Both the position numbers and the translations under genes were made by a program. This document shows, one piece after another, positions 1,621 to 22,258 of a DNA stretch of 41,640 bases; the first letter of the stretch is position 1, and each line of letters starts with the position of its first letter. This DNA is from a virus: the IMG/VR virus record IMGVR_UViG_3300033553_000404, positions 1-41,640 of that record. The stretch is one strand, 5' to 3'. The notes beneath the pieces were generated by a model, which worked only from the letters and a program-made list of their open reading frames with translations, made no database searches and was not told where the DNA came from.

Positions 1621-2169
1621 TTACTTCTTATAAACAAATTCCCATTTATATCATCAGGCAGTTTTTCTAAGTCCATTACAACACATTGATATATTTCATT
1701 GATGTATTAATACTATATTCATAACTTCTTTTGCACTATTCCAAGTTTTAATAAATTTCCCTTGTTTGTCATACTGATTTACTTTTTTATCATTTAAATC
1801 ACATCTTCCTAATTTTGAAGCTCTTATGTGTCTTCATTTTTTAACACAATCTTGAATATTTTGTTTTTGTGTTCATAAAAACAAGTTATCTACATTATTA
1901 TTACTTGGATTATCATCTTTATGACAGACACACATTTTAGGGTTATTTATATCTAATCATAAAAATTCTTGTGCTACTAATCTGTGAATATATAATTTTT
2001 TTCATCTTTTTGATTTATAAAATAATTCTACAACACAATATCATAATCTTGTTATACAATTTTTCATTTCTTTTGTTTTTCAAGTCCTATTAAAATTTAA
2101 ATTTTTTACATTTCATAAATTACTAATTTGATAATTTTTATATCAATGTATATCTTTCCAAATTTCCAT
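1621..2169 (-). CDS. NUMOD4-HNH homing endonuclease, 182 aa
   Basis: ATG 2169 to TAA 1621. The N-terminal NUMOD4 motif is WKDIHGYKNYQISNLGNVKN (residues 4-23). The HNH core runs from LYIHRLVAQEFL through CVCHKDDNPSNNNVDNL to LGTQKQN (about residues 58-103). A C-terminal NUMOD1-type helix-turn-helix module (VNQYDKQGKFIKTWNSAKEV, residues 132-151) binds DNA in this family. Such proteins cut a specific site and spread the gene by repair. Several family glycines are TGA. It is preceded by a structured leader with an intrinsic terminator (2187-2266) and is a relative of the gene at 21459-22040; both share the same 24 bases across the start. Confidence 0.9.
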
Positions 2170-2186
2170 AATTAAATAAATTAAAA

Positions 2187-2266
2187 ACTCTTACTTGCAG
2201 GCTGTCTCGCTAAAGGAAACCTGCAAATAAGAGTCTATAATTGCGAGACATTTAATTCCTTTAGCT
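2187..2266 (-). promoter_or_regulatory. Structured leader with terminator whose loop is complementary to the RNA 5' end
   Basis: On the minus strand a 15-bp hairpin (arms 2220-2234 and 2187-2201, one mismatch) with an 18-base loop is followed by a U-run, then by the HNH start codon. The loop contains TTCCTTTAGC and GCGAGACA. Both have perfect complements nearer the 5' end: GCTAAAGGAA (2256-2265) and TGTCTCGC (2243-2250). The upstream promoter places transcription start near 2266, so the antisense segment is the first thing transcribed. Pairing of the 5' end with the loop would form a pseudoknot and could make termination conditional. Confidence 0.7.
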
Positions 2267-2272
2267 ATATAA

Positions 2273-2300
2273 ATTATAGTCAGATTATGTTAAAAATCAA
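2273..2300 (-). promoter_or_regulatory. Promoter for the HNH leader
   Basis: On the minus strand: -35 TTGATT (2295-2300), 16-bp spacer, -10 TATAAT (2273-2278). Confidence 0.75.
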
Positions 2301-3046: not shown

Positions 3047-3184
3047 TTAATTAATAATTTTAGCTCAAAAATATTTAATATCTCTTATTTGATGACTTAT
3101 TAATCTAGTTTTATCTACTCTTTGAAATCAATTAATAAAGACTTCTTTCTCGTATAATCTTTTATATATTTCATTTTCCTTCAT
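3047..3184 (-). CDS. Hypothetical protein, 45 aa
   Basis: ATG 3184 to TAA 3047. Small basic protein (KRLYEKEVFINGFQRVDKTR). Two TGA-Gly. Its start lies in the second copy of the 36-bp repeat. No family recognised. Confidence 0.5.
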
Positions 3185-8361: not shown

Positions 8362-10551
8362 ATGGATTATCTAGATTTTATAAAAACTAAACATATCGAA
8401 TTTTTAAACTCTTGAATAGAAGTTGAAAAAGAAGATTTAAACTCAAATATGTTTGATTATCAAAAACAAATAGTAAAAAAAGCACTTGAAAAATGAAAGT
8501 ATGCTATATTTGCTGATTGTGGACTTTGAAAAACATTAATGCAATTAGAATGGTGCGAACAGATTTATAAAAAAGAATGATGAGAAATACTTATATTAGC
8601 ACCTCTCGCAGTATCTAAACAAACTAAAAAAGAATGATTAAAGTTTGGTATAAATATAAATATTGCAACTTGTGATGATGATATAATTGAATGAATCAAT
8701 ATTACAAATTATGAGAAATTAGAAAAATTTAGTTTAGATAGATTTAAAGCAGTTGTACTTGATGAAAGTTCTATATTAAAGAGTTTTACTTGAAAAATAG
8801 CACAAGCTATTATAGACTGATTTAGTCATACAAAATATAAACTAGCTTGCTCAGCAACACCAAGCCCGAATGATTTTACTGAACTTTGAAACCATTGTGA
8901 ATTTTTAAATGTGATGAGTAAAAATGAGATGTTATCTATGTTTTTTATAAATGATTGTGCTGATAATTGAGAAGGTTGGAGATTAAAAATGCACTCAGTA
9001 AATAAGTTTTGGCAGTTTGTATGAAGTTGGGCAGTTATGCTTAGAAAACCAAGTGATTTATGAGATGATATTTGTTATGATATAAAATGAATAAACTATC
9101 ATCAACAAATTATAGATCTAAATACAAATTTACAAGAATGACAATTATTTGATGTAGAAGCAAAATGATTAAATGAAGTAAGACAAGCCAGAAAAAATAG
9201 TTTAAGTGAAAGAATAAAAAAAACACTTGAAATTATAGCAAAATATCCAGATGAGCAATTTCTTATATGGTGCGATTTTAATGTAGAAAGTGAAGAACTT
9301 AAAAAAGCTATAAAATGAAGTTATGAGGTTAAATGAAGTGATAATGCTGAATATAAAGAACAAACAATGCTTGATTTTTCAGATTGAAAAGTTAAATATT
9401 TAATTACAAAACCTAGTATAGCTTGATTTGGTATGAACTGGCAAAATTGTAATAAAATGATTTTTTGCTGAATAAGTGATAGTTATGAGAGTTTTTATCA
9501 AGCAATTCGTAGATGTTGGAGATATTGACAACAAAAAGAAGTTGATGTATTTATTGTTATATGAGATAAAGAGATAAACTCACTTAATAACATATTAAAA
9601 AAACAAAGTAATCACGAGTTGATGTTTGATAAAATGAGCGAAAATGTACTACACTATTTTAATTTTAATTATATAAAAATGAATAATAACAACGATACAA
9701 TTATAACTAATAATGATTATACTATAATGAATTGAGATAGTTGTCAAAGAATAAAAGAGCTAGAAGATAATAGTATAGATTATAGTATATTTAGCCCTCC
9801 ATTTTCAGATTTATATACTTACTCAGATAGTGAATATGATATGGGAAATAGTAAAAACGATGATGAATTTTACAAACATTTTAAATTTTTAGTTAAAGAT
9901 TTATTTAGAGTTTTAAAACCTTGAAGAAATTTAAGTTTTCATTGTATGAACTTACCTACAAGCAAATTTAAATCTTGATTTATAGGAATAAAAGATTTTA
10001 GAGGTGATTTGATTAGAATGTTTCAAGATGAGTGATTTATTTATCATAGTGAGGTTTGTATATGGAAAAATCCAGTAGTAGCAATGCAAAGAACCAAAGC
10101 ACTTTGATTATTACATAAAACAGTAAAATCAAACTCTACAATGGCTAGAATGTGACTACCTGATTATTTAGTAACTATGAGAAAACCTTGAGAATGTGAA
10201 GTAAGAGTAACACATACACCAGAAGAGTTTTCAGTTGATGACTGGCAAAAAATAGCAAGTCCAATATGGACTGATATAAATCAAAGTCAAACACTACAAT
10301 ATACAAGTGCTAAAGAAAACAATGATGAGAAACATATATGCCCTTTACAATTAGATGTAATAAGAAGAGGAATATATTTATATACAAATAAATGAGATAG
10401 AGTATTAAGTCCTTTTATGTGAATAGGTAGTGAATGATATATAAGTTTACAACTTGATAGAAAGTTTACTTGAATAGAATTAAAAAAGTCTTATTTTGAG
10501 TCTGCAAGTAAGAATTTACAGTGAGTTGCAAAAAAGATAAGTTTATTTTAA
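8362..10551 (+). CDS. SNF2-like helicase fused to DNA methyltransferase, 729 aa
   Basis: ATG 8362 to TAA 10549. Residues 1-430 form a superfamily 2 (SNF2-like) ATPase: Walker A ADCGLGKT (51-58), Walker B VVLDESS (121-127), motif III CSATPSPND (163-171) and motif VI YQAIRRCWRYGQ (379-390). Residues 445-729 form a beta-class amino-methyltransferase: motif IV SPPFSD (478-483) comes before the SAM-binding FMGIGSEG (685-692), and RVLKPGR marks the intervening region. SPPF suggests N4-cytosine or N6-adenine methylation. The Walker A glycine before Lys is TGA. The fusion probably protects phage DNA by translocation-coupled methylation; no nuclease partner is adjacent, so restriction by this locus alone is unlikely. 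Confidence 0.9.
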
Positions 10552-21334: not shown

Positions 21335-21362
21335 TTGCTTTTATATAAATAATATATATAAT
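21335..21362 (+). promoter_or_regulatory. Promoter for the second HNH leader
   Basis: -35 TTGCTT (21335-21340), 16-bp spacer, -10 TATAAT (21357-21362). Predicted start about 21368. Confidence 0.65.
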
Positions 21363-21367
21363 ACTAT

Positions 21368-21445
21368 TAACTAATTAACAATCCCCCGAGTTAGTTAGTA
21401 TAACTATTTTAGAAAGCATTATATCGGGGGATATAGTGCTTTTTT
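21368..21445 (+). promoter_or_regulatory. Kissing-loop leader with intrinsic terminator before the second HNH gene
   Basis: Hairpin 1: TAACTAA/TTAGTTA (21368-21374 with 21391-21397) with ATCCCCCGA in its loop. Hairpin 2: GCATTATAT/ATATAGTGC (21416-21424 with 21431-21439), loop CGGGGG, followed by six T. TCGGGGGAT (21424-21432) is the exact complement of ATCCCCCGA (21381-21389). The plan matches the leader at 2187-2266, and both run into the same 24 bases around the HNH start. Confidence 0.7.
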
Positions 21446-21458
21446 AATTTATTTAATT

Positions 21459-22040
21459 ATGGAACAAGAAATTTGGAAAGATATAATTTGATACGAGTGA
21501 ATATATCAAGTAAGTAATTTATGAAATGTAATGAGTTATACTAGAAAAAGATTTAATTGAAAATGATATTTTTTATATAAATGAAGAATTATAAAAAATA
21601 TCTTTGATAAAAATTGATATGTGTTAATAAGATTATTTAATATTAATACTAAAAAAGTTTTTTTAGTACATAGATTAGTCGCACAATCATTTATAGATAA
21701 TCCAGATAATAAAAAAGAAGTAAATCATAAAAATGGTATTAAAACAGATAATAGAGTTGGGAATTTAGAATGGTGTACTCATAAAGAAAATATGGAGCAT
21801 ATGATATATGTTCTAAAAAAACACCATTTTCATACTAATCACCCATCTTTATGAAAATTTTGAAAAAATCATTTTAATTCAATTAAAGTAAGTCAATATA
21901 CAATAAATTTAGAATTTATAAATAACTGGGGTAGTATAATGGATATTGAGAGAGAATTATGATTTAATAACTCTAATATCACAAGATGTTGTAAATGAAA
22001 AAGAAAAACTTGCTGATGATTTGTATGGATGTATAGTTAA
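21459..22040 (+). CDS. NUMOD4-HNH homing endonuclease, 193 aa
   Basis: ATG 21459 to TAA 22038. NUMOD4 at the N-terminus (WKDIIGYEGIYQVSNLGNV, residues 6-24), HNH core [38 protein letters not shown] then THKENM (about 68-108), and a C-terminal NUMOD1-like helix ([18 protein letters not shown]). Glycines IGY, EGI, LGN are TGA. It is inserted against the direction of the late operon between two tail genes and its stop overlaps the opposite gene's stop. Such genes spread by cutting alleles that lack them. Confidence 0.9.
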
Positions 22041-22258
22041 GTTATAGGAGTTCTAGTTCAGTAAGTAGTTGTAGTAGCATAAAAAGTACCTGTGTGAAAT
22101 AATATTCTATCTCACGAGTTATTACATAAATTTCAAAGTTGTGTAACTAAGTATCATAAATCACTTCTTACTCAGTTTCTTACACTATAACTAGAATTTA
22201 TTACATTTCTAGTTCAGTAAGTAGTTGTCACAGGAGTTCTTCAATTATATGTACTCAT
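22037..22258 (-). CDS. Small protein with TTTYGTR motif at both ends, 73 aa
   Basis: ATG 22258 to TAA 22037. Near the start it reads RTPVTTTYGTRNV and it ends TTTTYGTRTPIT, an internal repeat of about nine residues with TGA for each Gly. Late-operon position between the ejection-like protein and the fibre suggests a minor tail component. The last codons overlap convergently with the HNH gene by 4 bp. Confidence 0.6.

Follow-up and report, generated by a model that had tools for sequence, protein, structure and literature searches.

The leaders of the two NUMOD4-HNH genes

The window analysed here is the whole 41,640-nt stretch of viral DNA in IMG/VR record IMGVR_UViG_3300033553_000404. It carries two NUMOD4-HNH genes read in genetic code 25, each preceded by a leader (Table 1), called W1 for the first gene (minus strand, 2290-2170) and W2 for the second (plus strand, 21370-21445). 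Within a leader, X denotes an upstream element, X' its complement in the terminator loop, and T and T' the 5' and 3' arms of the terminator. Between 20200 and 24631 the second HNH gene lies on the plus strand with large minus-strand ORFs on either side, and it consequently needs a promoter of its own. The sequence CTAGTTCAGTAAGTAGTTGT is present twice just 3' of this gene, within 22052-22230.

Table 1. Features of the two leaders and their genes in the window (positions from 5' to 3' of the plus strand)
Leader	Feature	Position	Strand	Remark
W2	-10-like box TATAAT	21357..21362	+	7 nt 5' of hairpin 1; putative promoter, from consensus only
W2	hairpin 1	21370..21399	+	10-bp stem with one G-U pair, 10-nt loop AATCCCCCGA
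W2	element X (ATCCCCCGA)	21381..21389	+	complement of terminator loop
W2	terminator 5' arm T	21411..21425	+	
W2	element X' (TCGGGGGAT)	21424..21432	+	loop and shoulder of terminator hairpin
W2	terminator 3' arm T' and U run	21430..21445	+	
W2	24-nt block identical to W1	21441..21464	+	U run through codon 2
W2	NUMOD4 + HNH_3 + I-HmuI-like endonuclease gene	21459..22040	+	code 25, 193 aa
W1	-10-like box TATAAT	2273..2278	-	
W1	element A (GCTAAAGGAA)	2256..2265	-	
W1	element B (TGTCTCGC)	2243..2250	-	
W1	terminator 5' arm	2218..2236	-	
W1	terminator loop with A' (TTCCTTTAGC) and B' (GCGAGACA)	2203..2218	-	central GC common to both
W1	terminator 3' arm and U run	2185..2203	-	
W1	first NUMOD4-HNH gene	1621..2169	-	code 25, 182 aa

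A preliminary description of W2 had reported, within 21368-21464, a loop that can pair with the loop and shoulder of a terminator hairpin. This complementarity is present, and both hairpins lie where they were placed and make up the minimum free energy fold, in which hairpin 1 (arms ACTAATTAAC and GTTAGTTAGT) is followed by the terminator hairpin (21411-21445) with U6. The latter has the sequence hallmark of an intrinsic (rho-independent) terminator, a stable stem with a U run immediately after it. X and X' pair loop to loop (kissing), an interaction that could form together with the terminator. The 9-mer ATCCCCCGA has two copies in the 41.6-kb window, one on each strand and both within W2, where 0.00 are expected, and the claimed scarcity of five-C and five-G runs is borne out, the plus strand holding only five runs of at least five C or G, two of which are X and X'. 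When both strands of the window were scanned for X-T-X'-T' in this order, followed by a U-rich tail, only W2 (-41.9) and W1 (-48.2) came out, and the same scan of 24 block-shuffled windows gave no match at -30 or better. The paired-loop arrangement of W2 is confirmed as real.

In W1 the terminator loop TTCCTTTAGCGAGACA and its flank have two complements further upstream, GCTAAAGGAA and TGTCTCGC, which pair in crossing order with this single loop (A B T A' B' T'). The second leader had been described as repeating the plan of the first with another sequence. This stands for the order X-T-X'-T' and the U-rich tail, found in both, but not for the sub-architecture, which is kissing in W2 and crossing in W1. 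Likewise, the 24 bases said to be identical in the two leaders exist (TTTTTAATTTATTTAATTATGGAA; 21441-21464 and, on the minus strand, 2187-2164) but stop at codon 2 and do not reach the fourth codon; neither the exact 24-mer nor P0002 has a match in viral contigs. A leader-peptide attenuator over element B of W1 was considered and rejected, its ATG being absent from the homologue L132 and also from L104 and L107.

Distribution, compensatory change and the genes served

Regions upstream of NUMOD4-HNH genes in IMG/VR contigs and GTDB genomes were tested with a detector that ignores the U run, each region being compared with its own 200 dinucleotide shuffles. A value of p<=0.01 was reached by 23 of 88 regions in one set and 16 of 90 in the other, with about one expected in each. 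The signal depends on gene context: the device precedes 32 of 93 genes that have their own leader, but just 2 of 79 genes directly adjoining an upstream ORF (Fisher p = 4e-8). The preliminary description had proposed to look for complementary terminator loops upstream of NUMOD4-HNH genes in code-25 phages, and in the scored set such loops occur in all nine with their own leader and in none of the five embedded in operons; the code-25 leaders L100 and L101 are positive in the 90-region set and were merged with duplicates in the context split. Homologous HNH genes that lack the device, which were to speak against the idea, do occur, though most of them directly adjoin an upstream ORF. Among other intergenic upstream regions, taken as control, 14 of 309 reached p<=0.01 (about 3 expected). 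Three of the top scorers were NUMOD4-HNH genes, two of which the set already contained with another start; others were, by inspection, phage genes of different kinds, for example DnaD-like or SSAP-like ORFs. Scans blind to genes found 33 devices in 0.99 Mb against 1 in shuffles; in 344 kb that is largely code-25 DNA they found 23, with 1.3 in shuffles. Candidate leaders (p about 0.01 each) are also seen at HNH-type genes of three cultured phages, Staphylococcus phage SEP9 (L226), Bacteroides phage BF1-TP2 (L229) and Flavobacterium phage FCOV-F34 (L234); the SEP9 leader has no U run.

W2 falls in register with a kissing class (L113, L202, L204, L206, L214, L213) that shares hairpin 1, loop complement and terminator. 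Six of these leaders (L113, L202, L204, L206, L214 and W2) all have an 8-nt loop complement, with loop sequences that differ from one another (CTCCGACA, CTACCACA, CTCTGACA, TTAGTGGA, CTTCCCAA and TCCCCCGA). In alignment A4, which holds five of the six in register, 100% of cells are paired over 24 pairs, versus 76.9% in shuffles and about 50% in slid registers; both sides have changed in 14 of the 24 pairs and in 6 of the 8 that form the kissing helix. A4 scores 0.767 for covariation, versus 0.254 when shuffled and at most 0.18 when slid. This covariation is strong, and X:X' pairing is conserved through compensatory change. The class of W1 (W1, L132, L104, L107, L098) has equally kept its two crossing helices despite sequence change, as in GCTAAAGGAA/TTCCTTTAGC versus GCTAAAGTCA/TGACTTTAGC, and the two paralogous L106 leaders on one contig keep T and change X with compensation.

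Most members came from a detector demanding X:X', and only the shuffle counts and three members found by models are independent of it. Because the detector demands complementarity, covariance models R1 and R2 were built without the loop pairs. W2 scores 88.7 bits with R1, but it belonged to the training sequences of that model. All three strong new matches have a loop complement: L213:14019-14109 (65.6 bits; ATCTGCAACAGTAA/TTATTGTTGCAGAT), L220, found in a genome of the same class as the Gracilibacteria MAG (55.1 bits; GCTAAACGA/TCGTTTAGC and TTAAGTCGC/GCGACTTAG), and L206:9691-9782 (38.3 bits; TTGGATAAC/GTTATCCAA and AGATTTGG/CCAAATCT). The weak matches L213:1339, L216 and L217 have none (0/3).

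The proposal of a conserved RNA device travelling with NUMOD4-HNH genes thus holds for the device, as shown by an architecture kept through sequence change, by covariation and by the blind-model members, but the device is not exclusive to these genes. In code-25 contigs it also lies 5' of other HNH-domain genes (HNH_3, HNH_4), of a DUF7487 gene, whose protein looks, from its sequence, like another homing endonuclease, and of Toprim/DUF5906 primase-like, Lin1244-like, HTH_36/DnaD-like and YopX genes; the gene with a leader in L220 has no Pfam match and is replication-like by similarity to L210. Leaders before primase- or DnaD-like replication genes are seen in code-25 phages or prophages at L201:12202-12283, L207, L210 and L220. 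By host, the leader occurs in unrelated phages of Gracilibacteria, Bacteroidota and Firmicutes. A similar leader at L029:20-150 precedes a short Cys-rich ORF that by inspection resembles the Mu Com protein.

Leaders are copied as whole units between unrelated genes. In L214 an HNH gene and a DUF7487 gene are each preceded by one identical block of about 105 nt (3050-3150 and 9375-9475), with no similarity outside it, and on the minus strand of L204 an identical block, running from the -10 box through the ATG, precedes two different ORFs with dissimilar flanks. In both contigs the identity is bounded by the vicinity of the -10 box or start site and by that of the start codon. Identical leaders before unrelated genes make the leader a module separable from its gene. 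The idea of an X strictly private to each leader is contradicted by the same identical leaders within L204 and within L214.

Predicted folding, the proposed attenuator and its rivals

In most sigma-70-type members a perfect TATAAT (6/6) ends 3-8 nt 5' of the first paired element (shuffle chance 0.017), which suggests that the transcript begins at X. Kissing-class boxes tend to sit about 13 nt 5' of hairpin 1, and Bacteroidota-like members have a TANNTTTG box at a more variable distance. Of 35 devices collected with no regard to the U run, 20 have one of at least four U after T', versus 11% in shuffles. With folding energies that leave out pseudoknots and the polymerase, a prefix ending at X', before T' emerges, forms X:X' with a probability of about 0.8-1 in all 35 devices scored, and at full length T:T' is dominant in most devices. 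X:X' is favoured at full length in the kissing-class L202 (0.79) and L204 (0.74), so that in this class the loops may kiss while the terminator stays in place, adding only to its stability. In L018, L044, L125 and L115, by contrast, a linker of 0-3 nt between X and T cannot span a T stem of 22-24 bp, and X:X' and T:T' must therefore be alternatives. A static H-type pseudoknot as the general form is ruled out by these linkers. A helix that competes with the terminator, as an attenuator calls for, is accordingly found, with strict exclusion only at the 0-3 nt linkers. Kissing loops, initially taken for the plan itself, are one form of it, and other forms have helices that are unable to coexist and act as alternatives.

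The leader is very probably a real RNA switch of putative function, and the RNA of roughly 90 nt 5' of the gene probably acts as a co-transcriptional attenuator. Computation shows the pairing, its compensatory conservation, its position, the association with genes that have a leader of their own and the predicted folding sequence; the rest, from the start site and termination to the kinetics and succession of steps in cells and any trigger, we infer. In this mechanism transcription would start at or just before X, as the -10 box suggests. X' would leave the RNA polymerase before T' is made and pair with X (loop to loop in W2), trapping the 5' arm and loop of the terminator, so that T:T', once T' emerges, would have to form against X:X' or by displacing it. 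Should T:T' win before the polymerase leaves the U run, transcription would stop 5' of the start codon; should X:X' hold, the nuclease gene would be transcribed. X would then be the antiterminator and T:T' the terminator, and whatever occupies X, be it another copy of the RNA, a protein or an effect of transcription speed, would set expression.

Among the rival explanations, self-recognition by the RNA is unlikely, although several observations are consistent with it. Once terminated, the leader would itself serve as a small RNA acting in trans, with X or X' pairing to copies still being transcribed; this would allow negative feedback, control of copy number, or the exclusion of a second phage carrying the same leader. 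Paralogous leaders on one contig do differ in X with compensation and are otherwise alike (the two L106 copies; the set L101, L112, L202), an X at the transcript end would be free after T:T' forms, and replication genes carry the leader as well. However, X is not always private, since L204 and L214 each have one leader, X included, before two different genes, and the window has no site complementary to X beyond chance.

That the folds act on translation or mRNA stability, hiding the start region or protecting the 5' end with termination incidental, is distinctly unlikely. Some relatives outside code 25 end in or beside a Shine-Dalgarno (SD) sequence (L069, L078), and T4 homing endonucleases use hairpins that sequester the ribosome-binding site (RBS) (PMC2988022). 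In this phage, however, an SD-like motif precedes only 3 of 31 checked ORFs and is missing before the second HNH gene, which argues against RBS sequestration, and the hairpin of W2 ends about 14 nt before the ATG, the U run coming next. For W2 an RBS-sequestering hairpin of the T4 type was rejected, there being no SD and the start codon lying outside the stem.

Attenuation by an antisense RNA as in pT181/pIP501, in which a counter-transcript would sequester X and so favour the terminator, is very unlikely. It has the logic of mutually exclusive folds known from rep mRNA attenuation (PMC8383071), and an opposite-strand TATAAT is present in four class-D leaders (W1, L132, L104, L107) and in W2. 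Yet such a box is found in only 6 of 18 leaders, is absent from the class-D members L098 and L220 (for L220, by inspection), and lacks a recognisable -35.

There is scarcely any likelihood that the conserved element acts as DNA, serving the endonuclease as operator, target or insertion end, even though T4 intron endonucleases bind operators overlapping their own promoters (PMC2988022) and leaders are copied as units. One leader precedes two unrelated endonuclease-type genes (L214 a, b), related endonucleases have unrelated leaders, and compensatory change preserves pairing rather than sequence. Finally, a plain constitutive terminator whose loop complement arose by chance, single terminators being common near phage genes, is refuted statistically by the gene-blind scans and the 24 shuffled windows and keeps a negligible probability.

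Beyond the co-transcriptional attenuator itself, a wider reading may be put forward tentatively, as a possibility that we hold to be rather doubtful: a phage leader family defined by architecture, in which the transcript 5' end is the antiterminator of its own terminator loop, with a locus-specific pairing code, modules exchanged between homing endonucleases and replication genes across phyla, and a terminated RNA that might serve as a self-recognition signal in trans. Under this reading each copy could be addressed separately, because the pairing code differs between loci. Self-protection of phages from their own free-standing homing endonucleases is known mainly for T4. A general answer, open to direct test, would come from a widespread leader that its architecture alone identifies, also in uncultured code-25 phages; that phage replication genes carry it as well suggests that RNA-based control reaches more widely among phage genes.

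Relation to known regulatory RNAs

At the Rfam gathering threshold the only match in the window is a tRNA, and no family fits the window leaders or the code-25 loci, with loci outside the window screened at E 0.5. A literature search with little coverage of subscription journals found nothing matching a terminator loop paired to the 5' element of its own transcript. Since the leader sequence is not conserved, sequence-based searches for RNA families would miss the family. The leader is best called a variant of transcription attenuator of putative mechanism, apparently undescribed in the resources searched.

Structured RNAs directly 5' of an HNH-containing gene are also found as the HEARO/OMEGA RNAs of IscB-like nucleases, but the window proteins show only NUMOD4, HNH_3 and I-HmuI-like domains, and there is no Rfam match. 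IncB/IncI-type repZ leaders have a regulatory pseudoknot, formed when a loop base-pairs with a remote segment of the leader; this serves translational activation near the RBS and does not involve a terminator loop as in the present leader. The repZ pseudoknot is named in a review that also covers antisense attenuation of plasmid rep mRNA (PMC8383071). Like the leader, the pT181/pIP501 rep attenuators precede the gene and have two mutually exclusive folds, one of them an intrinsic terminator. They use a counter-transcript, whereas the competing strand of the leader is its own 5' element, pairing with the terminator loop, and no conserved antisense promoter was seen.

RNA structure also limits the expression of T4-type homing endonucleases, through the leader hairpins of I-TevI, segB and Aeh1 mobE and through internal terminators of mobE and segF, that of mobE being partial (about 30%) (PMC2988022). 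These hairpins hide the RBS or sit inside the ORF, and none with a loop complementary to the transcript 5' end is described in PMC2988022.

The int-alpA RNA (RF02996) is found above the Rfam threshold directly 5' of NUMOD4-HNH genes at L052:1909-1976 and L072:1903-1968. Like the leader, it has a P1 and then a hairpin with a loop that base-pairs to a 3' strand, giving the order X-T-X'-T'; it differs in having a conserved sequence and no long terminator stem, and the window leaders and code-25 classes do not match it. Six further leaders resemble the int-alpA RNA of L052 and L072, and several int-alpA-like leaders repeat the 3' pairing strand beside the start codon (for example TAAACGC twice in L082 and AATCGGC twice in L022). 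Given the same strand order, by inspection, the int-alpA RNA may be a relative with a conserved sequence, and may mark a related subclass of these leaders.
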